A stretch of 39,854 bases of DNA. It comes from a virus. The position numbers were made by a program, and so were the translations under genes. Below the pieces are notes generated by a model. That model searched no databases, had not been told where the DNA came from, and saw only the letters and a program-made list of their open reading frames with translations. Positions 1 through 39,854 of the stretch are shown here, piece by piece. The stretch covers positions 1 to 39,854 of IMG/VR virus record IMGVR_UViG_3300037520_002447; one strand, given 5' to 3'. Position 1 is the first letter of the stretch, and every line of letters starts with the position of its first letter.

Positions 1-232
1 GCCTCACTGCGAAACAGGCGACGTCATCCCAGTTCATGTTGCCCGTTGCCCAGTCTTCAATCGCGCCAGGGTCGGCCTCAAATAGCGGCAGCGTGTCTTC
101 GTTCAGACTCCGCTCGATGTCACCGCCGAACTCGTGCGCATAGTAACCGGCTCGGTCTTTGGCAATAAACAACACGGGAACGCCCCATATAGAGCCATCA
201 GATACAGTGAATGTTAGGTATTTTCGATTCAT
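1..232 (-). CDS. Partial hypothetical phage protein (C-terminus off the window)
   Basis: An open frame begins at ATG (CAT at 230-232), preceded on the minus strand by GGAG six bases upstream, and runs off the left edge after 77 codons. The product starts MNRKYLTFTVSDGSIWGVPV and is rich in acidic and aromatic residues, with no motif, signal peptide or membrane segment that I recognise. It lies downstream of uvsX in the same direction, separated by a 9-bp hairpin at 251-272, so it may be transcribed from the recombination operon or separately. Function unknown. Confidence 0.7.
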   Translation of the reverse strand, partial: MNRKYLTFTVSDGSIWGVPVLFIAKDRAGYYAHEFGGDIERSLNEDTLPLFEADPGAIEDWATGNMNWDDVACFAVR

Positions 233-250
233 GGTTTCTCCAAAGCCAAC

Positions 251-272
251 GGCCACGCCGTGGGGCGTGGCC
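251..272 (-). terminator. GC-rich hairpin after uvsX (terminator-like)
   Basis: A perfect 9-bp stem (GGCCACGCC at 251-259 with GGCGTGGCC at 264-272) closes a 4-nt loop between the uvsX stop and the next start codon. On the minus strand it is followed only by GTTGGCTTTGG, so there is no strong U-tract. It could be a weak terminator or an mRNA-stabilising 3' hairpin. Confidence 0.4.
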
Positions 273-300
273 GCGGGTCGAATGTAATGATAGTCGAGAA

Positions 301-1371
301 TCAGCCGCTGGTCAACGACAGATCGCGCTCGCGCAGCTTCTTGAGGATGGCGTTGGCGAAGTCGGGATCCGTCTGCAGCGCCTCAAGGAAGGCGGCCTTC
401 TGCAGCTTGCGATCGCCGAAGCTGTACCACGTCCCGCTGCTCTCGATGACGTTGTGACCGGTGCCGAGGATGAAGATTTCGTCCTGACGGTTCACCAGAC
501 CCTGATTGTAGTTGAAGGTCATCTCGCCGGCGCGACCCGCCGGGCCGAGGCTGCTGTCCTTCATAACCACCCGGATCTTGTGGCCGGTGCGCTCGCCGTT
601 ATCCATGAAGTCGGTGACCGACTCATCGATGAACTCACGCCCCAGCAAATCCTTCTGCGCCGCCTTCGACTTCATGCGCTCGACGAAGGTGAAATACTCG
701 GCGTAATGCTGCACGCCGAAGGCGGCGGCCATCTTCACCTTGTTGCCGCGCTGCTGCTCGGCCATGTCCATCTCCGCACGCACCTGCGCAGTCAGCAGGA
801 CGCCAAAGCGGTACTTGCGCTGGACACGGAGGATGCGCTTGAAGCCATCCTGCAGGGTCTGAGCGACGTCGCCAATCAGCTGCTGACCAACGCTCTCGGC
901 GTTCGACATGCGTCGACCCATGATGCCGTTGATGGAGTCGATGATGACCAGCTTCAGCGGGAAGCCATCATCGCACATCGCCGCGATCTTGGTCTCGATC
1001 TGGTCGAAGACGCCCTCGGCCGTGTTCGTCTGAATGGCCGTGTAGCGATCCCAGTCGATGCCGTAGGCCGCCGCCTGCTTCTGCGTCAGCTGGCCTTCAT
1101 CGCGATACTCGGTATCAAACTTGATGGCCTCCGCGTCCTCGTAGTCGCGGTGCATCTGCGAGATCATGGCGTAGGAGTACAGCGACTTGCCGCCCTTGGG
1201 CGGCCCGAAGATGCACTGGGTGTAGCCGAGGGGCAGGCCCCAGCCGTTGCCAAAGGTGAAGTCGACGCCCGGCGAGCCGGTGCGCAACACCTGCCGATGA
1301 ATCGACTCGCGGTCTTCGTTGGGGATGTAGCCGGACAACTTCGACAACTCTTTCTTCCACTTGCTGGCCAT
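301..1371 (-). CDS. uvsX: UvsX/RecA-like strand-exchange recombinase
   Basis: This is a 356-residue RecA-fold recombinase of the phage UvsX type. It should form filaments on single-stranded DNA and catalyse ATP-dependent strand exchange in recombination-dependent replication and repair. Walker A is GPPKGGKS (residues 56-63), the DTEY motif with the presumed catalytic Glu is at 86-89, and Walker B LVIID is at 141-145. The length is close to T4 UvsX (about 390). It begins at ATG 1371 and is the third gene of a trio with a UvsY-like mediator candidate (1396-1980) and a gp32-like SSB (2094-3269), the same functional set as the T4 recombination machinery. Assignment to RecA/UvsX is firm; the choice of the UvsX label over RecA rests on context and divergence. 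Confidence 0.93.
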   Translation of the reverse strand: MASKWKKELSKLSGYIPNEDRESIHRQVLRTGSPGVDFTFGNGWGLPLGYTQCIFGPPKGGKSLYSYAMISQMHRDYEDAEAIKFDTEYRDEGQLTQKQAAAYGIDWDRYTAIQTNTAEGVFDQIETKIAAMCDDGFPLKLVIIDSINGIMGRRMSNAESVGQQLIGDVAQTLQDGFKRILRVQRKYRFGVLLTAQVRAEMDMAEQQRGNKVKMAAAFGVQHYAEYFTFVERMKSKAAQKDLLGREFIDESVTDFMDNGERTGHKIRVVMKDSSLGPAGRAGEMTFNYNQGLVNRQDEIFILGTGHNVIESSGTWYSFGDRKLQKAAFLEALQTDPDFANAILKKLRERDLSLTSG

Positions 1372-1395
1372 GTTCGTCTCCTTGTTGGTTGCAGT

Positions 1396-1980
1396 TCAGC
1401 GGGCGTATGCAGCGGGCGCGAAGCCTCGACGGTTTGAAGTCTGAGCCGAAGGCGCTTGTTGCTGCCGTGGACTGATAGCAGTCTGTTCGTCGTCGTCAAC
1501 AGGCGTCATGCGGTGGCTGACACCGGGGTTCGGCAGTTCCTTGTCCAGGAACACGGCCTTGACGGCAGAGAAGGCCTTCTCCATGGCCCGTGCACGGACG
1601 CTGAAGGTCTCGACGCCAGACTTGAGGTCAATCAGCTGGTCCCGCATCTCCCGGTACTCGGGATCGGCCTGAACAACGGATTGACGCAGATCCTCGCTGC
1701 CGCCGGGGCTGCGAGGCGACACCAGCCCCTTCTCCTTGAGGATTGCGGGGGCGCGGTTGAGGGCGATGTCAGCCGCCAAGGCCTCCAACGCCGATTCAGC
1801 CCGCTGGCTGGCGCGAAGGAAGACTGCGCGGGCGCGCGAGGCAGCAAGGTGGGCGTGATTGAAGAGATCGAGCAGTTCCTGCGCCTTGAACTTGGTGACC
1901 GAGGCCACCTCGTGCATGCGCCGCTCGCCCTCTTCCAAGACCGAAAGGTCAATGCCTTCCAGCAAATCGACTTCAGACAT
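1396..1980 (-). CDS. Helical protein, candidate UvsY-like recombination mediator
   Basis: A 194-residue, mostly helical, charged protein lies between the SSB and uvsX. ATG 1980 (MSEVDLLEGIDL) is preferred: it has GGAG in AAGGAGTTGCAACATC before it, whereas the frame further upstream runs through a transcription terminator at 2040-2072. The central part (about residues 85-140) has the pattern of T4 UvsY: a stretch resembling SEDLRQSVVQADPEYREM, then a long amphipathic helix ending in A-x-E-K-A-F-S-A-V-K. UvsY loads UvsX onto gp32-coated DNA. Here the assignment rests on gene order and weak resemblance, so the function is an inference. The C-terminus is Gln/Ser/Ala-rich and probably disordered. 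Confidence 0.6.
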   Translation of the reverse strand: MSEVDLLEGIDLSVLEEGERRMHEVASVTKFKAQELLDLFNHAHLAASRARAVFLRASQRAESALEALAADIALNRAPAILKEKGLVSPRSPGGSEDLRQSVVQADPEYREMRDQLIDLKSGVETFSVRARAMEKAFSAVKAVFLDKELPNPGVSHRMTPVDDDEQTAISPRQQQAPSAQTSNRRGFAPAAYAR

Positions 1981-2039
1981 GATGTTGCAACTCCTTGTCT
2001 CGGTGGGGACGTACCCCGCCGGCAGCCTATCACGGCCAC

Positions 2040-2072
2040 AAAAAGAACGCAACCCGGCTTTCACCGGGTTGC
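2040..2072 (-). terminator. Rho-independent terminator after the SSB gene
   Basis: A perfect 9-bp stem (GCAACCCGG at 2049-2057 with CCGGGTTGC at 2064-2072) with a 6-nt loop is followed on the minus strand by TTCTTTTT. It lies just past the SSB stop codon and upstream of the UvsY-like gene, so SSB mRNA would end here or be attenuated before the recombinase genes. It also supports the downstream start chosen for the 1396-1980 gene. Confidence 0.85.
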
Positions 2073-2093
2073 ATTCAGAGCCTCTGGGCGACT

Positions 2094-3269
2094 TCAGCCC
2101 ATCGACGGGTCAGGGAACTGGCGCAGGAAGTCCTCGTTGCTCATCGCATCAAGGTCGGCGTCCTCGGGCACCGCCACCGGCGCCGGCTTGGGAGCCGGAG
2201 CGGGCTTGGGGGCAGCCGAGATGGCTACCGGCTGCTTGGCGGCGGCCGCCTTCGCTGCCTTCTTGGCCGCCAACGCCGACTCCATGCGCGCGATCTCGTC
2301 GTCGTCATCTTCTGCGGCGGCCGGGGTCTCTTCCTCGACCGGCGCCGGCGGCGGTGCCGCCTGCTGCGTGGGCTTCGGAGCCGGAGCCGGGGCGGGCTTC
2401 GGCGGAGGCGGCGTACGGGACTCGTAGGAGTCGGGACGGCCACTGTTGAAGATGGCGTCGACCTCTTCCGGGTCACCGCTGCAGTTGACCAGCTGCTGGA
2501 TCTGTTCGCGGCTGATGACCGTCACCACCGTGTCGAGGCTCGGCAAGATGCGCAGGGCCTCGTTGGCCTGATCTTCCGACAGCGGAGCTGGCTTCGGAGC
2601 CATGTAGCTACGGCCGTTGACGACCGTCTTCTCCATGACCACGTCCACCTCGTCGACGAGCGACGAGACGACCTTGGGGTTGCCGCTGCGGCGGAACTCA
2701 AACCAGACGCCGCTGTCGAGATCGAGCGGGTCGATGTCCTGCTCCAGCATCTTGGAGATGACGCCCTCAAGGCGCTTCTTCGTCTCGTGGCTGAGCATGA
2801 AGACGTGGAAGCGGCCCGACTCGTCCATCGCCGCCATGTAGTGCTTGCGGTCGACGTTGTACTTGCGCAGCCAGTCGCTGGCGTCCTTAGTCAGCGCCTT
2901 GGCCTCATCGTCGGTATTGCCGTCGGCCTTCAGCTTCGCCAGCTTGGCTTCCAGCGACTTCTTGCGCGACTGCATGAGGTTGCACATCGGGCAGTCGCTG
3001 ACGACCATGCCGCGGCGCTTCTCTTCGACGCAGGCGAAGGGCTTGTGGCGGGTCTTGGTGGGATCGCGGCCGTCGCGGCCCTCAAAGCCGTAGTGGACGC
3101 TGTGGTAGATGCTCCACTTGCGCTGCGACGCGAGGTTGCCGAACGGCGGCAGCAGGCGCACGACGAGGCGAGCGACGTCGTCGGGCCCCTTGGGCATCGG
3201 GATCTTGAGGCGGCCCCACGAGGCTTCGGCGTTACCGTACTTGGGTTTGTTGAATCCGGCGGTAGTCAT
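2094..3269 (-). CDS. gp32-like single-stranded DNA-binding protein
   Basis: This 391-residue protein has the layout of T4 gene 32 protein. A basic N-terminus is followed by a core with a zinc-knuckle-like set of His and Cys: H56, H59 and H75, C80, and CPMC with C93 and C96. Then come a Pro/Ala-rich linker (about 285-340, repeated PKPAPAP) and an acidic tail ending DADLDAMSNEDFLRQFPDPS. In gp32 the zinc stabilises the DNA-binding core, and the acidic tail recruits UvsX, UvsY and replisome proteins. The ATG at 3269 has GGAGAG in AGGAGAGAACAAAC. A strong terminator follows at 2040-2072, so this abundant protein probably has its own mRNA end. SSB function is likely; the linker is unusually long and Pro-rich. 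Confidence 0.85.
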   Translation of the reverse strand: MTTAGFNKPKYGNAEASWGRLKIPMPKGPDDVARLVVRLLPPFGNLASQRKWSIYHSVHYGFEGRDGRDPTKTRHKPFACVEEKRRGMVVSDCPMCNLMQSRKKSLEAKLAKLKADGNTDDEAKALTKDASDWLRKYNVDRKHYMAAMDESGRFHVFMLSHETKKRLEGVISKMLEQDIDPLDLDSGVWFEFRRSGNPKVVSSLVDEVDVVMEKTVVNGRSYMAPKPAPLSEDQANEALRILPSLDTVVTVISREQIQQLVNCSGDPEEVDAIFNSGRPDSYESRTPPPPKPAPAPAPKPTQQAAPPPAPVEEETPAAAEDDDDEIARMESALAAKKAAKAAAAKQPVAISAAPKPAPAPKPAPVAVPEDADLDAMSNEDFLRQFPDPSMG

Positions 3270-3310
3270 GTTTGTTCTCTCCTGTTACAGTCGTTGTTTC
3301 AGTCGCTTGT

Positions 3311-4192
3311 TTAGATACCGGAGGCAAGAGCGGCGAGTTCGCCGAGAGCAGCCATAACAGTTTGCTCGCTAACGTCTTCGTCGCTCGTGATGTTTTTGAC
3401 CATCACACGCCGTCGGTCTCTAACAAGATTCTGCGCCAAGGCCTCCTCTTCATGGCCCGCATTGAAAACAACACAGGGAACACTAGTGTGGAAGCCAACT
3501 TCCAATGCTTGTACCAGAATCTCGTGGCGCGTCAAGAGATTTGTGAAATCAGCGCCCATGGCCTCATTGACAAAACCGCGCACGAAGTCAACGACCTGCA
3601 CGTCGCCACTAAAAGACATGGGACGAAAGGAGGGCCTAGAAATATCACTGGCGCCGTATTCTTTGGCCAATCCCACGACCCCCTCGACCAGAGTTACATA
3701 TTCGGGTGTATCAAAGTTCATTGTCGCGTTGCGTCCACGCATCTTCGGCAAGATGAGGCTTGCTAACTGACGATAGACACTCTCGACATCAACCACAGCT
3801 ACAGGCCCCAGCTCCCTGGCCATCTCAGCAAAGGCGTTGCAGTGACGACGCGGACCGCGTAGGAACATGGCGACGGCGTTGTCGTCAATAAACTTGGCGT
3901 ATTCGCGCTTCAGTACCTCCAGCTTCTCGCGTGCCTCAGATCGTGATACACCAAAAGCGGCACGGACATTGGCTGGCACTTCATCGAGATTGATATTGGC
4001 GCGTTCTCGCAGCAAGCGCATCTGCTCCAACAACAACACCTCCATACTCTTCTGGTTCGTCTCGCGAGGTGTTCGGTGTTCGGCATCGACAGCCTTCGCG
4101 CCGAAACCGGGCTCGCGCGTTTCGCGAGAGCGCGAATATTGGTCGAGATCATCGGTCGTTGTTTGTGACTTTGAGGTCTGCTTCTTGCTCAT
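3311..4192 (-). CDS. Hypothetical protein next to the DNA polymerase
   Basis: This 293-residue protein has no motif that I recognise. The first 40 residues are Lys/Ser/Thr/Gln-rich and probably disordered; the rest looks globular and mixed alpha/beta (for example GPVAVVDVESVYRQLASLIL and TSVPCVVFNAGHEEEAL). I start it at ATG 4192 (MSKKQTSK); an in-frame TTG at 4228 would add 12 residues. Either start overlaps the 3' end of the polymerase gene (stop at 4149), so translation is probably coupled to it. A replication accessory role is suggested only by position. Confidence 0.7.
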   Translation of the reverse strand: MSKKQTSKSQTTTDDLDQYSRSRETREPGFGAKAVDAEHRTPRETNQKSMEVLLLEQMRLLRERANINLDEVPANVRAAFGVSRSEAREKLEVLKREYAKFIDDNAVAMFLRGPRRHCNAFAEMARELGPVAVVDVESVYRQLASLILPKMRGRNATMNFDTPEYVTLVEGVVGLAKEYGASDISRPSFRPMSFSGDVQVVDFVRGFVNEAMGADFTNLLTRHEILVQALEVGFHTSVPCVVFNAGHEEEALAQNLVRDRRRVMVKNITSDEDVSEQTVMAALGELAALASGI

Positions 4193-7100
4193 TTTCGGTT
4201 TCCGTTGTTGCTGGTTGGTGGAAGACAATCAGGTCGACGAGACCAAAGGGTCGTCGCTCGGTGTATTTTTCAAAGACAGCAAGGCCAATAGCACCGGCGA
4301 TGTCGCTCCTGTACCACGCCGGAATCTTGCCTGTCTTCCGGTCGGGCCACTTCACGACGTTTACCGTACCGCCGCCCTCGCAGTCAAGGTCTAACTCGCA
4401 GGCCTCCTTCTCGCCCTTGGCGTAGGCGAAGACGCGGCGACCCTTCACGACGCAGGGGATGGCCACCTTGATCTTCATGTCCGCGGGCCAAGGCGTAATG
4501 GTCTCCAGTGCCTGCAGGCGCCGATGGCTGACAACGGGAATGTCTTCGGCCATGTGACGGAAGATCGGCTGCCGGGCGTGCATCAGCGCCTTCCGCGGCC
4601 ACTGGTCTTCGTCGGCCTCCAGCAGCAGCGGATACAGGGCCTCGCTGTAGATCGGCAGCACCTTCTTGCGCATCTGGAAGTTGAGGACGCGGCTGCTGAC
4701 GAGATACTTGGCGGGGACGGGCTGGATCTTCTTTTCGCCCTTGGCCTCGGCCGACGCCTGCTCATAGGCCGCGATCTTGTCGGGTAGCGTGGAGTCGGCG
4801 GGGAAGAGGCTGTCCATAACGCCGGCGGCAATCAGGAGATGTACGACGCCGCGAGTCAGGGCGCTGCGGCCCTTCGTCCAGCGCAACTGCCCGTCCTTTG
4901 TCGTCTTTTGCTTGCCCGTTGCCTTGTCGATGAGTGGCGTCTTGCGGGCCACGCAATCGACCTCGATCTTCTGACAGAAGTCGCGGATGTCGCTGAAGGG
5001 CGCCAGTGCCAGAAGCTGCTGCTGGGCCGTCTCGCCAACGCCCACAATCAGACCCACGGGCGCGCGGATGTGGTCGCCCTCGATACGGAACTTCTTCGAC
5101 GACAGGTTGATGTCGGGCAGCTTCACGAGGTGGCCGCAGTGGCGCCAGAAGTCGTCGACGACCTCGTTCTTGGAGGCGTTCCCGAGAACCGCACACCACC
5201 ACTCCAGAGGAAAGTGATGTTTGAGGTAGGCGCAGGCGTAGGCGATGTGGCTGTAGCAGACGGAATGACTGTTGCTGGTTACGATGCCGTTGGGCAGAAG
5301 GAAGTTGTGCTTGGGATGGGAGACCTCAAGATCACACATTTCGACGAGGCCCACGGCACGGATTCGTACAATCCTCCGCAACACCAGACTCCCGGTTGAG
5401 GCGAGCGGAGCATCGCTGTAAGCCAATCCAGCCAATCTTCTACCATCTTTCCATCGGAAGAACGGAAGCATTGCCCGGAAAGCCGGATCAACATCACATT
5501 CCCGCGGCGGAGTGCTTCTTCGTTCAACATCGCATCCCGAGACTGTCTTTTCTGCAGAGCACAGACGTGAAGGTGGTTCTCCGGGTTTCCTGGGAAGAAG
5601 TGCCAAAAGCCGTCCACTTCCACCCAGATCTTGCGATCCGGAGACACGAAGTCCACTTGCTTCTGTTTGTTCGTTGCTGCACAGAAGATACGGGCCTCCT
5701 CCCATATCAGAACACCCGACGATCGAATCCACGCCTCGGCCTTCGACCCTTTCGTGGCCTTCTGCATCTTCTGGACGATCTCCGCCATCTTCTCGGGATT
5801 CGCCCTCTGCCAAGCATGGATCCTCGCAACTCGCTGAAGTTGAATGTCTCTCCGCGCCGAGGTCTTGGTGGCAGCCTTGGAGGCAGCCAGTTGTTGTGTC
5901 GCGCTTTGATTGAGCCTTGTGTTCTTGGCGCAGATGTTGCGCGCCTTCGCCTCTGAGCAAATCTGGCACACTTTCTTGTGGGCCACCAGTTGTCGCTTGG
6001 GGACCAGTTGCTTGCAAGGAACAGCCACTCCATGTCTCCCATTCAGGGCCAACATCCGCGCTTTCTGGCGGGTCGCCTTGATCTGGAGACAGGCGGCGCA
6101 GGTCGACTTGTGCTCCTTCAGCTGAAGGACTGGCGTAGGCACGCCGCACGGCGCCTTGGATACCGCCTTGGCCTCCAGGCAGAGTGCGCACGCTGTCTGG
6201 TGACTCCACAGCTCTCTCTTGGTTGAGAGATCCAATCCGCACCTTGCTTTCCACAACTTCACACAAAACTCCATGTCCCTTGTCGATTATCTCGTACAAA
6301 GGCTTTTGGCCCTCAGAGGTGAGGAACTTGTGGTGCGACGACACCACGGCCTTGTAGCCATCGTCGAACTCGACCTCCCATCCCATGAGGGTGCCGTGGT
6401 CGTGTACCGCTACGACTTTGGTAGCGATCTTCTGACCACCTTCTTCTATACAGAAAATGTCATCTCCAGGCTTGAAATCGATTGCCTTTTGGGGTGTTCC
6501 ATCGGCGGTCTCCAAGATTGTACTTGACAGCACCGATCGGTTGAACCCGTATTGCCCCCATGTAACGAAGGTATCCCATATAGTTTTTGCCACCTGTTCG
6601 CCGCCGACCTTGGGCGCCGCGCGTTCGATGAACGCCGGATAGGCCTTGAGCACCTTGTCCATCTTCTTCTTGGCGACGTTGGTGCGGAACTCCTCGGCCT
6701 CTGAACCGCTGCAGCCCGTCAACTCACGGTAGGCACGCTGCAGCTGCTCCTGATACGTCAGGACGCCGTAGGTCTCCGGGAACAGTTCGGCCAGAGCATC
6801 GATGCTGCCACAGGCCTCTTCGCCGCGGGCGCGACGGGCGTATTCCACGAGCATGTTGTGCTGACGGCCATCAGGCCCCTCGACATAGGCGTCAAGGGGG
6901 CCGGGGCGGTCAAGGGCCGCGAAGGCCGACATGGCTTCGATGGAGTCGATGGCCTTGCGACCAGCAACCTCATCCTTCCAGTGGTTGAAATGGCGCAGCC
7001 ACTGGACGGCGCCGGGGGTGTTGAACTGGAAGACGGTCTCGGTCTTGCCCTCGCTGATTTCACGGAAGACGGCCTGATCCTCGGGCAGGTCCCAAATGTC

Positions 7101-7775
7101 ATGGAAGCCGCCGCAGCCATCAGGCAGCAGGCGATGGCGGGGCACGAGGCGGCCGTTGATGACAACTGAGGCCGGGTAGATGATGCCGTCGCCGCCGCTG
7201 GCGCGACCACCCGGCAGAACACCTTCCTGAATCAGATTGAGGGCATCCTTGATGTCGCCGAGGCTGTTGACGACGAGGAAGTCCATCTTCAGGCCACCGG
7301 CAGCCTCGACGGCCGACGACGTGTACTGGGTGGCCGTGATGCCGCCGATGTCCATCAGCGGGATGAACTCGTGGACCGGGCGATTGGCGATGATGAAGCC
7401 GCAGGCGTGACGAGTTTTCGATCGACAAATCCCAAGCAGTCTCTGCACGATCTCCCATTCGTTGGGGTATCGGGCGATGTAGGCCTTCAGGGAGGCGTCC
7501 GTCTCAATGCTTCCCGGAACGTGCTCATCATTCGCCGTGTAGCCAAAGACGAAGTCGCTGTCGGTGATGCCCTGAGGCGGGTTCTGGAACTGCTTTGCCA
7601 TCTCCTCGACGTCAGGCATCACGGAGCCGTGGATGGCCCGCGAAACGTCCTTGACCGACGATCGCAGCTTCAGGGTCGTGTCGGCGCTGATCTGCGCGTA
7701 GTGGTCAGCACCGAAGCGCTGTTTCAGCCAAGGTTCCGCTCTCACTGTGATGGCGTTGATTGAAGTGATTTTCAT
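4149..7775 (-). CDS. dnaE: DNA polymerase III alpha (DnaE) C-terminal piece, containing an intein
   Basis: A 1208-residue product carries the second half of a bacterial-type replicative polymerase. It begins at ATG 7775 with GAGGAAG upstream. After a 13-residue leader with no counterpart in ordinary DnaE, the sequence rejoins the family at PWLKQRFGADHYAQI, equivalent to the helix after the PDxDxDF active-site motif. KMDFL (D165) matches the third catalytic Asp of the family (KFDFLGL). RPGPL, YQEQ and KKKMDK follow, then GQYGFNR-SHS, the fingers motif of DnaE, which is interrupted by an intein (residues 414-835). The first two catalytic Asp residues are in the separate N-terminal gene (8014-9684), so activity needs both chains. 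Start and stop overlap the neighbouring genes, which implies coupled translation. Confidence 0.9.
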   Translation of the reverse strand: MKITSINAITVRAEPWLKQRFGADHYAQISADTTLKLRSSVKDVSRAIHGSVMPDVEEMAKQFQNPPQGITDSDFVFGYTANDEHVPGSIETDASLKAYIARYPNEWEIVQRLLGICRSKTRHACGFIIANRPVHEFIPLMDIGGITATQYTSSAVEAAGGLKMDFLVVNSLGDIKDALNLIQEGVLPGGRASGGDGIIYPASVVINGRLVPRHRLLPDGCGGFHDIWDLPEDQAVFREISEGKTETVFQFNTPGAVQWLRHFNHWKDEVAGRKAIDSIEAMSAFAALDRPGPLDAYVEGPDGRQHNMLVEYARRARGEEACGSIDALAELFPETYGVLTYQEQLQRAYRELTGCSGSEAEEFRTNVAKKKMDKVLKAYPAFIERAAPKVGGEQVAKTIWDTFVTWGQYGFNRSVLSSTILETADGTPQKAIDFKPGDDIFCIEEGGQKIATKVVAVHDHGTLMGWEVEFDDGYKAVVSSHHKFLTSEGQKPLYEIIDKGHGVLCEVVESKVRIGSLNQERAVESPDSVRTLPGGQGGIQGAVRRAYASPSAEGAQVDLRRLSPDQGDPPESADVGPEWETWSGCSLQATGPQATTGGPQESVPDLLRGEGAQHLRQEHKAQSKRDTTTGCLQGCHQDLGAERHSTSASCEDPCLAEGESREDGGDRPEDAEGHERVEGRGVDSIVGCSDMGGGPYLLCSNEQTEASGLRVSGSQDLGGSGRLLALLPRKPGEPPSRLCSAEKTVSGCDVERRSTPPRECDVDPAFRAMLPFFRWKDGRRLAGLAYSDAPLASTGSLVLRRIVRIRAVGLVEMCDLEVSHPKHNFLLPNGIVTSNSHSVCYSHIAYACAYLKHHFPLEWWCAVLGNASKNEVVDDFWRHCGHLVKLPDINLSSKKFRIEGDHIRAPVGLIVGVGETAQQQLLALAPFSDIRDFCQKIEVDCVARKTPLIDKATGKQKTTKDGQLRWTKGRSALTRGVVHLLIAAGVMDSLFPADSTLPDKIAAYEQASAEAKGEKKIQPVPAKYLVSSRVLNFQMRKKVLPIYSEALYPLLLEADEDQWPRKALMHARQPIFRHMAEDIPVVSHRRLQALETITPWPADMKIKVAIPCVVKGRRVFAYAKGEKEACELDLDCEGGGTVNVVKWPDRKTGKIPAWYRSDIAGAIGLAVFEKYTERRPFGLVDLIVFHQPATTETENEQEADLKVTNNDR
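5271..6536 (-). mobile_element. Ser1 intein in DnaE-C with an endonuclease gene in the +1 frame
   Basis: A 422-residue in-frame insertion splits the DnaE motif GFNR|SHS. Block A starts SVLSSTILETADG, block B is VVSSHHKFLTSEG, and the C-terminal blocks are CDLEVSHPKHNFLLPNG followed by IVTSN, then Ser+1. So residue 1 is Ser rather than Cys, and the usual penultimate His is Ser. Between blocks B and F the intein frame is open but looks non-protein-like (Gly/Ser/Glu/Arg-rich). The real coding content there is an endonuclease in the +1 frame (5279-6274). The insertion point is three residues from that of the cyanobacterial DnaE split intein. A paralogous intein lies at 36653-37864. Confidence 0.88.
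5279..6274 (-). CDS. Vsr/EDxHD-like homing endonuclease nested in the +1 frame of the DnaE intein
   Basis: An ORF of about 330 codons lies wholly inside the intein, shifted +1 relative to it. Two starts are possible: ATG 6274, or GTG 6262 with TGGAG six bases before it; I think GTG 6262 is likelier. The N-terminal half has three Cys/His modules of the form C-x(11-12)-H-x3-C-x2-C (for example PCGVPTPVLQLKEHKSTCAA), presumably zinc-binding. A segment with WQRANPEK follows, then a nuclease core: KQVDFVSPDRKIWVEVDGFW, then HFF, a Q-S-R-D-A-M-L-N-E-E-A-L-R-R-G stretch and LIRLS. The E-x-D-G-x2-H and R-D pattern is that of the Vsr/EDxHD nucleases, which serve as homing enzymes in some phages. The stop TAA lies 8 nt before the intein end. 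It probably mobilises the intein. Confidence 0.75.
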   Translation of the reverse strand: MEFCVKLWKARCGLDLSTKRELWSHQTACALCLEAKAVSKAPCGVPTPVLQLKEHKSTCAACLQIKATRQKARMLALNGRHGVAVPCKQLVPKRQLVAHKKVCQICSEAKARNICAKNTRLNQSATQQLAASKAATKTSARRDIQLQRVARIHAWQRANPEKMAEIVQKMQKATKGSKAEAWIRSSGVLIWEEARIFCAATNKQKQVDFVSPDRKIWVEVDGFWHFFPGNPENHLHVCALQKRQSRDAMLNEEALRRGNVMLIRLSGQCFRSSDGKMVEDWLDWLTAMLRSPQPGVWCCGGLYESVPWASSKCVILRSPIPSTTSFCPTAS

Positions 7776-8017
7776 CGTTTCTTCCTCGCAAGGTAGTACC
7801 AGACCTGCTGCCCGCGGTCTAGGCCAAACCTCTCTACATGAGAGATGGCGATGTTGCATGGATGGCAGACGATGCCACGAAAAAGCCCGGTGGCGTGATC
7901 GTGGTCGGCGTTCCATCCACGTTTATGACGAGGGTCGACGCTATTACAGACCTCGCACCGGTTTGCCGCCTTTAGGGCGGCTATCGCTCGCCCCTGTTGC
8001 ATCTTTGACAAAGTCAT
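7772..8017 (-). CDS. Endonuclease VII-like HNH nuclease between the two dnaE pieces
   Basis: This 81-residue protein has the recombination endonuclease VII / HNH signature: CEVC (C21, C24), NADHDHATG (residues 37-44) and CHPCN (C51, C54, N55). The two CxxC pairs bind a structural zinc and the D-H-D-H segment gives the metal-dependent active site. It starts at ATG 8017 in an ATGA overlap with the stop of dnaE-N, and ends in an ATGA overlap with the start of dnaE-C. Its position suggests a free-standing homing endonuclease whose insertion fractured dnaE, as MobE did to nrdA in phage Aeh1. It is short compared with T4 gp49 (157 residues), so a Holliday-junction resolvase role is less likely. Confidence 0.85.
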   Translation of the reverse strand: MTLSKMQQGRAIAALKAANRCEVCNSVDPRHKRGWNADHDHATGLFRGIVCHPCNIAISHVERFGLDRGQQVWYYLARKKR

Positions 8018-9684
8018 TCGATTACCTCAGCCTGTCGATCGAAGGCTTCCTGCGCTGTCATCATTCCTTGACTGGTTTTGATCTTCTGGGAGGGCGAGAT
8101 GACCTTCTTGGATCCGTCTTCCATGACGATTTCTATCATATCCACATCGTGCTCTTCTACGAGAAGATCCCGAGACGGGAAATCAAAGTCAATGTCAGGC
8201 AGCTTTCCTGACTTGATGCGGTCGACGGTCAAAAAGCGATCCATCGACAGATCGTACTTCAAGGGGTCGACGTGGGTGATGCCCAGAAGGTACGTCAGTA
8301 GGAGGCCGGCGGCCGATCCGCGACCCGGCCCAGTCAGAAATCCCTGTTGCGAGTAGGCGTCGCAAACGTCGGCCCCCACAAAGAAGTAGGGCAACAGATC
8401 AATCGTCTTGTTGTAGTGCAGGAGGTTGATCTCAGCCCTCAGCCTCTCCGTGTACTTCGCGTCCTTCCACTGCATTCGCCCCTGCTGGCGGATGAGGTCG
8501 ATGGTGTGGTTCAGGGTGTTGGAGGGGTAGAACTTAGTGGGCAGCGACGGCGGCTCCACCAGCTTGAAGTCCTTGAACCGCTGTCCCCAAGCGATGTTGT
8601 TCTCCACCCAGCCGCCGAACTGAGCCTCCGAGGTGCCGTTGGCCTTGAAGTAGGTCCATGAGTCGTCCGCCGACTGCCGCGCATAGGTGCCGTAGAAGCG
8701 CCAGTTGCCCTGCTGCTGCAGCCGGATGTCTTGAACGATTTTGTCCTGAGGCGTTGCGTAGTGGCTGTCGTCGCTGATGACCACCGGGTCGCCGTACTTG
8801 TCGGCGAAGCCGAGGATGACTTCATTGCAGGCCTGCTGCACGTTGGGGTTGTTGGTCCACGGCAAGCATTCGTTCTCGATGAAGGCCTCGACGCGCTTCA
8901 CCTTGACGATGGCCTTGGGCTCAAGGTCGCGCCACACACGGCGATCCATGACCGCCACCAGCGTATCGCCCTGCCACCCCTTGTGGTTGAAGGCCTTGGC
9001 GAGTTCGGCCGCCTTCAGCTGCAGGCCACTGCCAAGGCGCAGGTTCTTTTCGTCGTAGTAACGGACCTCTGTGCCATCGGCAAAAGTCACAAAGACCCCC
9101 TGCACCCAGTTGTGAGTACAGGAGTGCGGAAAGACCTCGGCGTAGAAGTTGCCGGGGCGCACGATCGATCGCAAGCGGCTGTAATACGCCTCGGCAGTCG
9201 CCAAGTCGCCGTGGGCCAGCAGGTGACGCTGGACCATTCCCACGAGACAGCCGCTGCCGACGGTGACGTTGCAGGCGCCGATCTCCTCCAGATCCGCCCA
9301 AGTGAACAGCGGCTTGACCTCACTGCCGTGGCGTTCGGTGCGCGCTAACGAGGTCTTGGAGACGATTTTGTGGTAGGCCTCTTGGTCGAGGGCGTGAATC
9401 GTGATGTGGTAGTATTTCAGATGCTTCGCCGGATCGACGCCCTTGGCGCGGAGGATCGGGCAGTTGTCGTCGCGGAAGTAGCCTTCAATGCCAAGGATCG
9501 GCGTCAGTCCCTTGCCGCGGGCGAGGTCGTAAACCTTGCGGCAGCAGGACAGGCTGCCGTGGTCCGTGACCGTGATGGTCCCCGTTCCCAACTCCATCTC
9601 CCGCTTGATGATGGCCTCGGGCGTCGATCCGCTGTCGAGACTCTGGGGATGGCAATGAAAAGAGGGAGGGTTGCGTGTAAGCAT
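8014..9684 (-). CDS. dnaE: DNA polymerase III alpha (DnaE) N-terminal piece: PHP and palm
   Basis: A 556-residue product holds the first half of a DnaE polymerase. The PHP domain begins at once (SFHCHPQSLDSGS with H10 and H12, TDHGS at 40-44, ILGIEGYF). The palm motif GPGRGSAAG is at 452-460 and PDIDFDF at 496-502, whose D499 and D501 match E. coli D401 and D403. The family sequence stops six residues later at PSRDLL (503-508). It is replaced by a 48-residue tail (509-556) that resembles the block B region of Hint/intein domains (IEIVMEDGSKKVISPSQ, then KIKTSQGMMTAQE), but without block A, Cys1 or the block B His. Translation appears coupled to the HNH gene. The start codon lies in the loop of a strong hairpin (9660-9695). 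Confidence 0.9.
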   Translation of the reverse strand: MLTRNPPSFHCHPQSLDSGSTPEAIIKREMELGTGTITVTDHGSLSCCRKVYDLARGKGLTPILGIEGYFRDDNCPILRAKGVDPAKHLKYYHITIHALDQEAYHKIVSKTSLARTERHGSEVKPLFTWADLEEIGACNVTVGSGCLVGMVQRHLLAHGDLATAEAYYSRLRSIVRPGNFYAEVFPHSCTHNWVQGVFVTFADGTEVRYYDEKNLRLGSGLQLKAAELAKAFNHKGWQGDTLVAVMDRRVWRDLEPKAIVKVKRVEAFIENECLPWTNNPNVQQACNEVILGFADKYGDPVVISDDSHYATPQDKIVQDIRLQQQGNWRFYGTYARQSADDSWTYFKANGTSEAQFGGWVENNIAWGQRFKDFKLVEPPSLPTKFYPSNTLNHTIDLIRQQGRMQWKDAKYTERLRAEINLLHYNKTIDLLPYFFVGADVCDAYSQQGFLTGPGRGSAAGLLLTYLLGITHVDPLKYDLSMDRFLTVDRIKSGKLPDIDFDFPSRDLLVEEHDVDMIEIVMEDGSKKVISPSQKIKTSQGMMTAQEAFDRQAEVIE

Positions 9685-34849: not shown

Positions 34850-37800
34850 ATGACTGCGTTGTCTGAAAAAAGCAGCAGGTTGGTGGAAGGCTCTACGGGT
34901 CTGGTCATCGATGGTGTTTTCGCCAGCGAAGTCTGGGATTCCTCCGGTGAGGTGCTTGACATTGCGGGATGCGACATTTCCGAAATGGAAGAGGGGCGCG
35001 GTCTCGCCAACTACGAACATCGTAATGACGAGTCGACGGGCGCCACAAGTCAAGACATCGTAGGTCGCATCATTTATGCGCGCAAGATTTTCAATGAATC
35101 TGATTGTGAGGACGAGCGCCAGAAGATGTTCTGGAAGAAGGTCAAGGTCCCCTTCATCTACGGCATGGTTCGGCTTTATGACGGCGCTGGTCACCTGTCG
35201 GCTCAGGGCCTTGCGGCTCAGGTGCGGGACGCGGTGAAGAACAAGGAGCAGATCCTTGTTCGGTTCTCGATCGACGGCAGCACATTGGAGCGCGACGGTA
35301 ATCATCTCAAGCGCACGATCGCCCGCCGCGTTGCCCTGACCATCAAGCCCTGCAACAAGACCTGTGACAGCGACCTCGTCGTTGACCCCAACGCCCCCGA
35401 GGGCTACGAGAAGAAGCCGAAGAAGCCGCTGGTGGAGTTGGTGAAGAAGGAACACCCGCTCTACGGCCGCCTCGGCTCCTCAGGCGAGATTGAGCAGGAT
35501 GCGCCGGAGCAGCAGGCGCTCTGGAAGGCCCTGAAGGCCTCCAAGGAAGCAAAGCCGGCGGCCAAGAAGTCGGTGCTGCCCAAGGCCCCCAAGCCCCCGG
35601 CTCAGTGGGAATCGGAGGACGGCGTCGTCATCCCCCGCGCCGGCACTCCGGATCGCAGGCGCTGGGATACGGCCTATGAGAAGGCACTGAAGCAGCACTT
35701 TGGCGGCGGCAAGCCCATCCAGATCAATGTCGATGAGGCGCAGAGTCTGAATCCAGTCCGTAACTACGATCGTTACGCCATGTACGTTCAGATGGCGCAG
35801 CATGACAGGCTGCCGCCGGCCGTCGTCCGCCGCTCGGGCTCGGGCTGGGAGATCGTTGACGGCAATCACCGGCACTTTGCGGCCAAGAAGGCGGGCCTGA
35901 AGACCATGGACGCCATCGACATCACGGAATCGAAGGCGCGCAAGAGCGAACAGGAGACGGGCATGAAGAAGGCGATGGATGCGGGCATGGCCACTGGCTC
36001 GCCCTCTAGCCTTGTGGGCGGCGCGGCGCTGCAGCGCGAGGAGTTGGCGAAGAAGCTGGTGAAGCTGGCTCAGGACTACCATGAGTCCAAGGGCTCGATG
36101 CGCGACTTCCTCAAGTCTCAGCTGCCGGAAGTCAGCGACCACTACCTCGATCACTTCACTGACCTCGCCACCGACATCCGCGCCCGCCTGCGCAAGACTG
36201 AGCCGCTGGCGAAGGCGCGCAAGAAGGCGGAAGGTGCTGGCGCGGAGGCTGCGGCTCCGGTTTCGGAGCCCGCGCCGGCTCCCAAGGCAGCTGCCGCCAA
36301 GGCGCCGAGGGCGCCCAAGAAGCCGGCCTTCACCGTTCGCGGCGAAGGAGTCAAGGCTTCGGGGCTTTCGGGTCCACAGATGGTGTTCAACGAGCACACG
36401 GGTCAGCTGAAGACCAAGAATGGCCACTTCAGTCTCTATAACCCGGATGCGGATGGCGATTCTGGCGAGAAGTTCCGTCAGGTGTGGAACTCGCCTGAGG
36501 TTCGCCGCCAACACGACTACGCTGTCGGCAACTGGGTCAAGCTGAATCAGGCTCTCAAGCAGGGTCGTTTGCCTGAGGCAGTGCTGGCGACTTCGGTGGC
36601 CTTCTCGCAGCTGAGCCCCAACACGCCCGTTCCCGTTCACGAAATGATGTATTCGATTGACTCAAACACAATCTTGTACCCAGTGGGACAAGAACCCAAG
36701 AAGATCAAGGATTTCCGCAAAGGAGATTTGATCTTGGGCGTAGATTCTTTGGGAAATGTGATTGAAACTGAAGTTTTGGCCCTGCATGATCATGGTGATC
36801 TGATGGGCTATGAGATCACGTTTGAAAATGGTTACTCGATCACGACTTCCAAGGATCACAAGTTCTTGACTCCTGCTGGCATGATGTCCATTGTGGACGT
36901 TGTGCGTTTCGGTGTGGAGGTCGTTTGTGGCAAGGAAGCAGAAGATCGGTGGCTGGCCAGCGAGATGCGGTCAGGTGTTTCCGACGGAGGTTCAGTTCAA
37001 GGCCCATCGAGTCGGTTGTGCGCAGTGCAAGGCGATGCGCCAGCAAGCACGCGCCGTCTCTGCTCGCGATTGGCATCGAAAAAATCCGGAAGCCGCGGCC
37101 CTGCTGCGGGAGAAGGCGATGGCCGCGAGTGCGGAGTGGCGACGATTGAATCCGGATCAAGTGGCAGCGGGTCCCAGACGATGGCGCCAGGAGAATCCGG
37201 AGGCATGGGCGCAGCATCAAGCCTCGTGCTCTCTGGCGATGCAGGAGTGGCGACGGGATCATCCGGAGATGACTTCGAGGTTTCTTCGGCTGCTTGCTGC
37301 CGGTGCTGCTCGGTATCGGGCGGAGCACCCCGAACACTTCATGGAGACAGCGAGGGCGCTGGGGGCGTGGCCGGACAAGCGAGGGAACCGCTCTCTGATG
37401 GAGGAGTGGCTTCGGTCTTCTGGTACGCTGACATGGCCGGACGCTCAGATCCGTTGTCTTATGGACGAGCGCAAACAGGTGGACTTAGTGTCTCCAGATC
37501 ACAAGATCTGGGTGGAAGTGGACGGAGTGCACCACTTCTTCCCGATCACGGCGACACCGGAGTGGCAGGCTCGTTTGGCCAAGACGCAGCTGCGAGACGC
37601 GATGTTGAAGGACGAGGCTCTGCGACGCGGCAATGTGACGTTGATTCGACTTTCCATGGAGTGCTTCAAGACCTGCAAGAGCAAGGAGATGAAGGCCCAT
37701 TGGTTGGATCTGCTGAATCAGATACTCCAGTCGCCCTCTCCGGGGGTCTGGTGCTTCGGCGCGTTGTACGAGTCCGTACCGTGGGCATCAGCCGGATGTA

Positions 37801-39854
37801 TGATCTTGAAGTCGCCCACCCTAAGCATAACTTCCTGCTCCCCTGCGGGATCGTGACGTCAAACTCCTACCTCCTCGATACCTTCAAGGAAAAGGGGATG
37901 GACATCCGCGACGCTCGTTTTGGATCTCCTGAAGTGAAACAGGATTGGATGTCGCGCGACCAACCCCATGCTTGGCCGCAGTCTTCGCGCGACTACTTCA
38001 CCCAACAGATCGGCGATCTCGTCACCAATCAGCGTGACTCTACCAAAACGGGGCGTCTGGCGGGTGAGCGCACTTCATTCATGCTTGCACACAATAAGTT
38101 CGCCAACATGGCACGATACGCTGATGCTCACCAGCACATGAAGGATCTGGTCTCACGTCACGGCGTTGATGGTCGTTCGGCCGTCGCTGAGTTGATGGGC
38201 AACAAGGGCAAAGCGGAGTTGTGGGAAGCGACTCGCAAGCGGGCGCTCGACAAAGGCAAGCCAGATCCGGGTCCGTTTCAGGGCCTGCACATTCCCGGTC
38301 TGGCCCCGAAGACCGCTCGTTTTGCCTACGCCATGCTTGGTGCCGGCAACTCGTTCGTGCCCGACACTCACTTCAGCCGCCATCTTTTTGGTCTCGACAA
38401 GGACAAGGACAAGCAGTCCATTCACCACATCCGAGACGACATCTTGTGGAATCACAAGAACAGCGATCTGCTCTCGGCGATGGATCGCTGGTATTACCGC
38501 AATCATCCGGCCGTAAAGTTGATGCTTGAGCATCCTGAGTTTGGTTCTTACTTCAAGGACAATCCAGAGCAGGCAGTGTTCCCTGCCTTCTGGGGTCATT
38601 GGCTGTCGATCGCGCCCCATGAGCGGCTGATGGAACACAAGCGAGCGAACGTCGCTCATAATCAGGCGGCCAGCCATCGTCCGTTGTTCGATGAGGTCCA
38701 GCGCCTTTTGCAGGATCCGAAGGAGTCGCAGCAAACAGTTCCGGCCCGCGCAACGCCGCTGCCGGAATCGCCGGCGCCTCAGTCGAATCTGCGTTTTGGC
38801 TTCAAGAAGTCCGAGGAGTCGGGTCCGCTTATCGACCCGCGGCTGGCAGCGGCCCTTGTTCGTCACTGGATCAACCACCACGGCGAGGAAGAGGCTTCGT
38901 TCCGCTACTACTCGCAGTTGCTGCCGCTGCTGATGCACGGCTCGGAGAACGAGGACCCCATCCTCAAGGCCGAGAAGCTGTCAGTCGAAGTCCGCAACGC
39001 CGCGGCGCGTCTGAAGAAGGCCAACGGAAACCCTACTGAAGCCGCGCCGACGAGGGGCGAAGACCCCGCTGACTCGTCGCGGCATTCGCTGGGTTTGGCG
39101 CTGGAAAAGGATCTGGTTGAGCGCAACACCAAGCACATTGCTCCCGTCAAGGTCTCGGCCGCCGACGGCAGCGATCGCATCAACAATACGCCAGAGCAGA
39201 AGGCGTTGATCGACGGCGTGGACCTGAGCCGGAACCTGAAGGCCAAGCCTGTTCACGCCACTGAGTCGCTGACATCGCCAACACAGATGTGGATTCCGCA
39301 TCCCGATGACAAGCGGTTGGTGCTTGTGAAGCATGGCCACGAGTGGTCGTATCCGCACATGGGGGCTCGCGAGACGGCGTATCACAATCTGGCGCGCGAC
39401 GTCTTTGGTCTCGGCGAGTACGTCCCGCTGACGGCGATGGCCAACCATCCCGGTGGCTGGGAAATGAGCATGCAGGAGATGGTGAAGAACCCGGAGCATC
39501 ACAACTCCGGCAGCGGCGCCCACCTGAAGACGCTCATGCGACTTGGTGACGCCGGCGAACTGCACAAGCTGGCGGCGATGAACTACATTCTTGGCAACGA
39601 CGATCGCCACGGCAACAACTACCTGTTCTCTCGCGGCGATGACGGCAAACTGAGCCTGAAGCTTATTGACCACGGCCACACCTTCCGCAACACAGCGGAA
39701 GAAGGGAAGCAGTCACTGGAGGCGCAACTTGATCAGAAGCCGGGGCCGGGGCTGCGGTCGCGGGAACTGCGCAAGCCGCACTACCTGAAGGTCTATGAGT
39801 TTGAGAAGGCGCGGCCAGCTGCCGACTTCAAGGGTAAGGTTGGTGGTCGCGTGA
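34850..39854 (+). CDS. Giant multidomain head-associated (polyvalent) protein with intein, 3' end off window
   Basis: An open frame from ATG 34850 to the right edge (at least 1668 residues). In order: a prohead protease-like domain (about 1-185; NYEHRN with H57 and RFSIDGS with S140 as candidate catalytic pair); an Ala/Lys/Pro linker; a ParB-like domain with VDGNHRHFAAKKAG (336-349); a second Pro/Ala linker; an HhH-GPD DNA glycosylase-like domain split by an intein (602-1005), with IPGLAPKTA (K1154) and VPDTH (D1172) matching endonuclease III K120 and D138; and a PI3/4-kinase-like domain with LGNDDRHGNN (D1584) and LIDHGHTF (D1607). This resembles polyvalent proteins packaged and injected with phage DNA to counter host defences. 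The protease could mature the capsid and release the other domains. Functions are inferred from motifs. Confidence 0.82.
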   Translation, partial: MTALSEKSSRLVEGSTGLVIDGVFASEVWDSSGEVLDIAGCDISEMEEGRGLANYEHRNDESTGATSQDIVGRIIYARKIFNESDCEDERQKMFWKKVKVPFIYGMVRLYDGAGHLSAQGLAAQVRDAVKNKEQILVRFSIDGSTLERDGNHLKRTIARRVALTIKPCNKTCDSDLVVDPNAPEGYEKKPKKPLVELVKKEHPLYGRLGSSGEIEQDAPEQQALWKALKASKEAKPAAKKSVLPKAPKPPAQWESEDGVVIPRAGTPDRRRWDTAYEKALKQHFGGGKPIQINVDEAQSLNPVRNYDRYAMYVQMAQHDRLPPAVVRRSGSGWEIVDGNHRHFAAKKAGLKTMDAIDITESKARKSEQETGMKKAMDAGMATGSPSSLVGGAALQREELAKKLVKLAQDYHESKGSMRDFLKSQLPEVSDHYLDHFTDLATDIRARLRKTEPLAKARKKAEGAGAEAAAPVSEPAPAPKAAAAKAPRAPKKPAFTVRGEGVKASGLSGPQMVFNEHTGQLKTKNGHFSLYNPDADGDSGEKFRQVWNSPEVRRQHDYAVGNWVKLNQALKQGRLPEAVLATSVAFSQLSPNTPVPVHEMMYSIDSNTILYPVGQEPKKIKDFRKGDLILGVDSLGNVIETEVLALHDHGDLMGYEITFENGYSITTSKDHKFLTPAGMMSIVDVVRFGVEVVCGKEAEDRWLASEMRSGVSDGGSVQGPSSRLCAVQGDAPASTRRLCSRLASKKSGSRGPAAGEGDGRECGVATIESGSSGSGSQTMAPGESGGMGAASSLVLSGDAGVATGSSGDDFEVSSAACCRCCSVSGGAPRTLHGDSEGAGGVAGQAREPLSDGGVASVFWYADMAGRSDPLSYGRAQTGGLSVSRSQDLGGSGRSAPLLPDHGDTGVAGSFGQDAAARRDVEGRGSATRQCDVDSTFHGVLQDLQEQGDEGPLVGSAESDTPVALSGGLVLRRVVRVRTVGISRMYDLEVAHPKHNFLLPCGIVTSNSYLLDTFKEKGMDIRDARFGSPEVKQDWMSRDQPHAWPQSSRDYFTQQIGDLVTNQRDSTKTGRLAGERTSFMLAHNKFANMARYADAHQHMKDLVSRHGVDGRSAVAELMGNKGKAELWEATRKRALDKGKPDPGPFQGLHIPGLAPKTARFAYAMLGAGNSFVPDTHFSRHLFGLDKDKDKQSIHHIRDDILWNHKNSDLLSAMDRWYYRNHPAVKLMLEHPEFGSYFKDNPEQAVFPAFWGHWLSIAPHERLMEHKRANVAHNQAASHRPLFDEVQRLLQDPKESQQTVPARATPLPESPAPQSNLRFGFKKSEESGPLIDPRLAAALVRHWINHHGEEEASFRYYSQLLPLLMHGSENEDPILKAEKLSVEVRNAAARLKKANGNPTEAAPTRGEDPADSSRHSLGLALEKDLVERNTKHIAPVKVSAADGSDRINNTPEQKALIDGVDLSRNLKAKPVHATESLTSPTQMWIPHPDDKRLVLVKHGHEWSYPHMGARETAYHNLARDVFGLGEYVPLTAMANHPGGWEMSMQEMVKNPEHHNSGSGAHLKTLMRLGDAGELHKLAAMNYILGNDDRHGNNYLFSRGDDGKLSLKLIDHGHTFRNTAEEGKQSLEAQLDQKPGPGLRSRELRKPHYLKVYEFEKARPAADFKGKVGGRV
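36653..37864 (+). mobile_element. Ser1 intein in the giant protein with an endonuclease gene in the +1 frame
   Basis: A 404-residue insertion lies between VHEMMY and SYLLDTF. It begins SIDSNTILYPVGQEPKK, has GDLILGVDSLGN, block B TTSKDHKFLTPAG, and ends RMYDLEVAHPKHNFLLPCG followed by IVTSN, then Ser+1. It is clearly paralogous to the DnaE intein (5271-6536), though the extein sites share no sequence beyond Ser+1. The central 300 codons are open in this frame but look like a frame-shadow (GESGGMGAASSLVLSGDAGV and similar). The meaningful reading there is the +1 endonuclease. The insertion sits in the conserved N-terminal part of the HhH-GPD-like domain. Confidence 0.88.
36927..37856 (+). CDS. 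Vsr/EDxHD-like homing endonuclease nested in the +1 frame of the second intein
   Basis: A 309-residue product if started at GTG 36927, which has GGAGG six bases upstream; the frame is open further up to TTG 36891. It contains one Cys/His module (RCGQVFPTEVQFKAHRVGCA then QC, C-x12-H-x3-C-x2-C). Five tandem helical repeats with W/Y-x-x-x-N/H-P-E/D follow (WHRKNPE, WRRLNPD, WRQENPE, WRRDHPE, YRAEHPE). The nuclease core is KQVDLVSPDHKIWVEVDGVH, HFF, LRDAMLKDEALRRGN and LIRLS. The core is closely related to that nested in the DnaE intein. The stop TGA (37854-37856) is 8 nt before the intein end, in the same place as its paralogue. It probably drives intein homing; the repeats may read the target DNA. 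Confidence 0.75.
   Translation: MARKQKIGGWPARCGQVFPTEVQFKAHRVGCAQCKAMRQQARAVSARDWHRKNPEAAALLREKAMAASAEWRRLNPDQVAAGPRRWRQENPEAWAQHQASCSLAMQEWRRDHPEMTSRFLRLLAAGAARYRAEHPEHFMETARALGAWPDKRGNRSLMEEWLRSSGTLTWPDAQIRCLMDERKQVDLVSPDHKIWVEVDGVHHFFPITATPEWQARLAKTQLRDAMLKDEALRRGNVTLIRLSMECFKTCKSKEMKAHWLDLLNQILQSPSPGVWCFGALYESVPWASAGCMILKSPTLSITSCSPAGS

Follow-up and report, generated by a model that had tools for sequence, protein, structure and literature searches.

A phage dnaE gene is interrupted by a contiguous intein that very probably splices in cis and carries the gene of its homing endonuclease in its own +1 frame. The window, i.e., the whole stretch of DNA analysed, comprises positions 1–39,854 (39,854 bases) of the IMG/VR virus record IMGVR_UViG_3300037520_002447. 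The elements of the locus are as follows.

4149–7916 (–), DnaE-C ORF, the host gene (extein-intein-extein), with Pfam matches to DNA_pol3_alpha/finger and HHH_6
5271–6536 (–), intein of 422 aa, S1...N422 followed by S+1; clean insertion compared with Mx1 DnaE, Intein_splicing match, Hint fold
6249–6536 (–), N-terminal splicing domain, residues 1–96, blocks A and B; AlphaFold pLDDT >90 for residues 1–90; H69, S66
5508–6248 (–), predicted disordered "shadow" linker of the intein frame, residues 97–343
5271–5507 (–), C-terminal splicing domain (AlphaFold model), residues 344–422, blocks F and G
6269–6273 (–), Shine-Dalgarno-like TGGAG within the intein coding sequence; duplex energy –5.9, rank 0.16 (weak)
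5279–6262 (–), nuclease ORF in the +1 frame, 327 aa, putative start GTG 6262, stop at 5279–5281; alternative start ATG 6274
5945–6241 (–), zinc-finger-like C/H modules of the nuclease, residues about 8–106
5393–5755 (–), Vsr/EDxHD-like catalytic domain, residues about 170–290, KQVDFV...IWVEVDGFWHF; assigned by structure match and invariant residues
5318–5401 (–), nuclease C-tail PQPGVWCCGGLYESVPWASSKCVILRSP over intein block F, both frames constrained (simulation with the intein protein fixed)

The intein is bordered in DnaE-C by YGFNR upstream and SHSVCYS downstream, and the DnaE of Myxococcus phage Mx1, the best match to the record among isolated phages, shows the empty site YGFNR/SHSICYS; positions 5271–6536 are a clean intein insertion. 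A sequence-only reading of this DNA had placed an open intein frame here, with exact coordinates, and the frame indeed runs through 422 consecutive codons without a stop. In the AlphaFold model of the intein-frame protein, the Hint fold is confident at residues 1–96 and 344–422 (Z 18.3 to NpuDnaB, 135 residues at 2.1 Å), while residues 97–343 have pLDDT values <50 throughout. Among the splice residues, H69 of block B, D402, H410 and N422 are invariant in the family alignment (see below) and S66 is nearly so; residue 1 is S, T or C, residue +1 is Ser, and the penultimate residue is Ser rather than His. Threonine occupies position 1 in L003, L014 and several others, beside Ser or Cys elsewhere in the family. 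The Pfam model Intein_splicing matched all eleven members searched, the window copy by itself lying under the Pfam cut-off. Fold and splice residues together suggest that the intein splices itself out.

The +1 frame was claimed to encode a Vsr/EDxHD-like nuclease with zinc-binding modules, and modelling agrees on the nuclease fold. The nuclease model (pLDDT 85, C-tail folded) matches the repair enzyme Vsr with Z scores of 10.5 (1cw0) and 9.4 (1vsr), and the homing endonuclease I-Bth0305I with 8.2 (3r3p); E176, D204, E215, D217 and H221 are invariant across the nuclease alignment. By its predicted fold, the protein is a nuclease of the Vsr/I-Bth0305I (EDxHD) type. C8, H21, C25 and C28 of the zinc-finger-like modules are nearly invariant, their spacing having been read from the alignment, and zinc-related Pfam matches are weak. 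Neither Pfam and NCBIfam models nor PDB sequence searches returned a confident nuclease family, a Vsr-like match being absent from the PDB sequence search. An HNH label from PHROGs (7 of 11 members, best E value 1.6e-8) was set aside because the fold is Vsr-like. The third frame over the window nuclease contains 8 stops.

Searching the record with the nuclease revealed a second copy at 36960–37736 (+), 41% identical to the first and located in an intein of the same kind.

36653–37864 (+), second intein, 404 aa, in a prohead-protease-like gene; frame fully open, empty site in the Mx1 prohead gene
36927–37856 (+), nuclease of the second intein, 309 aa, +1 frame, putative start GTG 36927 behind GGAGG

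Its host ORF (34850–39853, +; PHROG head maturation protease) runs past the end of the record. The dnaE and prohead-gene inteins of the window are named A and B, and L numbers denote other loci. Relatives were collected from viral contigs of IMG/VR by alignment searches, near-identical records being counted once; single-sequence searches of viral contigs or phages did not find relatives of the nuclease, for which alignments were needed, and two genome-contig scans yielded none. Twenty-two distinct inteins, A, B and 20 further ones from IMG/VR, carry an intact out-of-frame nuclease; in seven more the nuclease is shortened or interrupted and the intein frame is open.

Intact out-of-frame nuclease: A, B, L003, L004, L006, L011–L016, L032, L033, L054, L056, L059, L061, L063, L072, L079, L082, L101
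Shortened or interrupted nuclease, intein frame open: L034, L035, L038, L048, L060, L062, L088

Three extein families are represented, namely DnaE, the prohead gene (B, L006, L015) and a sigma-factor-like gene (L004, L016; PHROG E value 2.4e-4 for L004). The intein frame is open in all 29 distinct contiguous inteins, and no relative turned out to have its nuclease in that frame; all members are from uncultured viral contigs, gathered by similarity to the first ones rather than as a census of layouts, and the phage collection searched contains no carrier of such an intein. Upstream of position 5274 in L006, a second intein appears, by eye, to end some ten residues ahead of the out-of-frame intein (VCVTGN/TPVPMQEIMF/CLDQ). 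The damaged intein of L038 is preceded, also by eye, by the C-half of another split intein (about 3603–4200) with a nuclease-like ORF before it.

Translation of the nuclease probably starts inside the intein. The proposed GTG 6262, six bases behind TGGAG, is present in the window, and an equivalent start, GTG in eight and ATG in three, occurs in the 11 core members 21–31 codons past the HKFL motif in block B. Nearly all of these starts follow a Shine-Dalgarno-like stretch, the strength of which varies: L004 has a weak one, and so, judged by duplex energy, has the window copy, most relatives having a stronger duplex. Four distant members (L032, L033, L056, L063) have a less obvious start codon. 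Programmed +1 frameshifting, by which the nuclease would be made as a fusion to DnaE-N and the N-terminal Hint domain with no internal initiation, would fit the frame relation, which is always +1, as well as the members that have no good Shine-Dalgarno match. We nevertheless regard it as improbable, given that the core members share a GTG or ATG at corresponding positions, together with a Shine-Dalgarno-like stretch, and that in L012 and L013 a +1-frame stop 3 codons ahead of the nuclease ATG leaves little room for a shift.

Where the nuclease tail runs over block F, both reading frames are under constraint. With the intein protein fixed, the +1-frame tail showed an identity of 0.635 as compared to 0.231 in simulations, and 0 stops as compared to 12.8; the simulation ignores relatedness of the sequences. 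In the same pairs, identity at fourfold sites of the N-intein is low (0.09–0.50; C-intein, 0.62–0.86), which argues against relatedness as the cause of the likeness of the tails. Dual constraint had been proposed for the frames as a whole; in a strong sense it holds only for this tail of roughly 25 codons, and elsewhere the intein frame over the nuclease is merely kept stop-free. The third codon position of the nuclease is the most diverged one in nine of nine homologue pairs, and the shadow linker, postulated as a long stretch of frame shadow, is stop-free and hardly conserved beyond the level imposed by the nuclease: the conservation expected of it was dropped, its identity of 0.231 being barely above the 0.202 simulated with the nuclease fixed and stops forbidden. 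The tail also bears on splicing at the RNA level, with the nested region as an intron within a mini-intein. Phage introns often carry homing endonucleases, but an intron would have no need of a stop-free host frame, no Rfam family matched in the window at gathering thresholds, and the nuclease tail enters block F, which must remain in the message; we consider an intron very improbable.

Selection against stops in the intein frame was assessed by a permutation test in which synonymous codons were shuffled within each nuclease, keeping nuclease protein and codon use. For the window copy, 0 stops were seen as compared to about 9 expected, none of 20,000 permutations being as low. The expectation was 8–18 stops in each of 11 loci, about 133 in sum, and about 93 in seven further loci, with 0 seen in either set; overall, the 18 loci have 0 stops vs. 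about 225 expected. The third frame is not depleted (144 stops seen, about 129 expected, 11 loci), and a natural control is provided by 12 relatives of the nuclease encoded as separate ORFs, which have 12–37 stops in the corresponding frame. The open intein frame thus reflects selection against stops, more than chance. An accidental, functionless open frame, DnaE being made otherwise, might be imagined from the GC content, which is 57% here, and from long off-frame ORFs, which are common, but it is hardly credible against this deficit and the zero stops in every locus, even at 35–38% GC where the third frame has 21–36. Two compensating sequencing or assembly errors hiding an in-frame domain, the usual intein layout, are refuted by the relatives: many assemblies contribute to the 22 distinct loci with this arrangement, which is present twice in one record. 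Moreover, the clearing of stops would be needless for an in-frame nuclease, and the nuclease start is closely preceded by stops in its own frame.

The separate-ORF relatives of the nuclease comprise 12 distinct members, 11 of which sit, at the dnaE site of the window intein, between an upstream N-half (a dnaE ORF ending in an N-intein) and a downstream C-half (an ORF starting with a C-intein).

Separate-ORF nuclease between both split-intein halves: L081, L083, L085, L090, L091, L093, L094, L096, L097, L098, L100

A description of all 12 as fractured split inteins fails for L089. Positions 2–3483 of this locus contain the N-half of dnaE, N-intein included, and the nuclease ORF; no C-half was found in the 2.9 kb downstream (6.4 kb of sequence); the rest of its dnaE would lie elsewhere or be lost. 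A guess that the ORFs of fractured loci are coupled by ATGA was not borne out, since none of the 12 loci has an ATGA overlap. In these loci (L081–L100) the upstream dnaE ORF has a frame offset of –1 to the nuclease ORF, as compared to +1 in the out-of-frame inteins. In the nuclease tree, a branch (72/98, not starred) divides the separate-ORF members from the out-of-frame ones, and the tree gives no order of the two layouts. A does not pair with B in this tree, where copies cluster by insertion site. Exteins of A and L003 are 92–95% identical, as compared to 62% for the N-intein and 57% for the nuclease, suggesting horizontal movement.

In L101 (3001–3744), a divergent relative of the nuclease is placed before block B, close to the N-terminus of a DnaE intein and out of frame with it; neither of these two frames has a stop, as compared to 15 in the third. 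This is possibly an independent nesting event. The branch of L101 in the nuclease tree is very long. Inteins in uvsX of cultured T4-like phages were considered as members and rejected, as they are fractured and have a different endonuclease (GIY-YIG-like by eye); a homing endonuclease ORF lies between the halves of these split inteins in PspYZU05, Lion_ER11, Pm5461 and EnC07 (L066–L069). In the window, dnaE is broken a second time (7772–9684, –): DnaE-N (8014–9684) ends in a short Hint-like tail and is followed by an Endonuclease VII/HNH gene (7772–8017, –), after which DnaE-C restarts with MKITSINAITVRAEP/WLKQRFG. This break is common to L003, and Mx1 is contiguous at that point; a fractured intein that has degenerated and shows no recognisable splice ends may account for it.

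Two frames in 22 inteins, the avoidance of stops, the empty sites, the predicted folds and the constraint on both frames where block F is overlapped are what the sequence shows; splicing, internal translation, cleavage and homing we infer in the following way. A ribosome reading dnaE would cross the whole element in the intein frame, producing the N-terminal Hint domain, a disordered linker of about 250 residues and the C-terminal Hint domain; the Hint halves would fold together and excise the element, leaving an intact DnaE. A second ribosome would start inside the intein at GTG 6262 behind TGGAG, and the free nuclease, consisting of zinc modules and the Vsr/EDxHD domain, would cleave dnaE alleles that lack the intein, driving homing. 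That the nested nuclease probably spreads the element in this manner is suggested by its family, by the empty sites and by a divergence that is faster in the intein than in the exteins. Selection would preserve the nuclease sequence, purge stops from the intein frame and constrain both products over block F. The inteins described here likely form a phage family whose splicing domain and homing endonuclease are separate proteins read from overlapping frames, block F and the last part of the nuclease fold being encoded out of phase; alongside the fractured split inteins located at this dnaE site, they would represent another way to uncouple splicing from homing.

To our knowledge, the endonuclease of an intein is generally regarded as fused in frame or, in fractured genes, as a separate ORF. 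The inteins described here are contiguous, and their endonuclease is encoded separately in a second frame; the host genes are of three kinds. Splicing and nuclease are uncoupled in that the nuclease may decay, as in seven relatives, while the intein frame must remain open. The family offers a long natural example of overlapping genes under asymmetric constraint that is amenable to testing, and annotation of a single frame would overlook the nested nuclease. The claim that no intein family of this kind has been described agrees with the open-access PMC literature, where we found no intein with an out-of-frame nuclease; subscription papers lie outside this scope, so absence is unproven.

Fractured genes, reportedly described by Dassa et al. 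in 2009 (cited in PMC3229294), are said to combine split inteins with a free-standing homing endonuclease, two polypeptides splicing in trans. They resemble 11 of the 12 separate-ORF relatives, in which the nuclease has its own ORF between the intein halves, whereas the window intein is one polypeptide with a continuous 422-codon frame in which the nuclease is hidden. As relatives of the nuclease also occupy split inteins at the dnaE site of the window intein, the relation between contiguous and split inteins is directly testable. Conventional large inteins have their HEN domains at one conserved insertion site (PMC6801210); the window intein shares with them the Hint fold, the splice-site residues and the position of the nuclease between blocks B and F, but its nuclease is outside the intein polypeptide and has a C-tail overlapping block F. 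I-Bth0305I is a phage-type EDxHD homing endonuclease of group I introns (PMC3943268); it and Vsr share the fold of the window nuclease, and neither is encoded inside an intein. The closest precedent is the ShiLan insertion (Arsenault, Gosselin, Gogarten 2025, PMC11855218), which is open in the host frame and contains an out-of-frame HNH endonuclease with an internal GTG start; its host-frame product has no recognisable fold, intein splicing domains and a detectable ribosome binding site are absent, and the authors predict that the insertion stays in the protein. The window element likewise is a host-frame-open insertion with a homing-type endonuclease in another frame, putatively started at an internal GTG. 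It is not of the ShiLan type, since Hint domains flank the nuclease, which is Vsr/EDxHD-like rather than HNH and has a Shine-Dalgarno-like stretch before its start; unlike in the ShiLan report, stop avoidance was tested here across a family.
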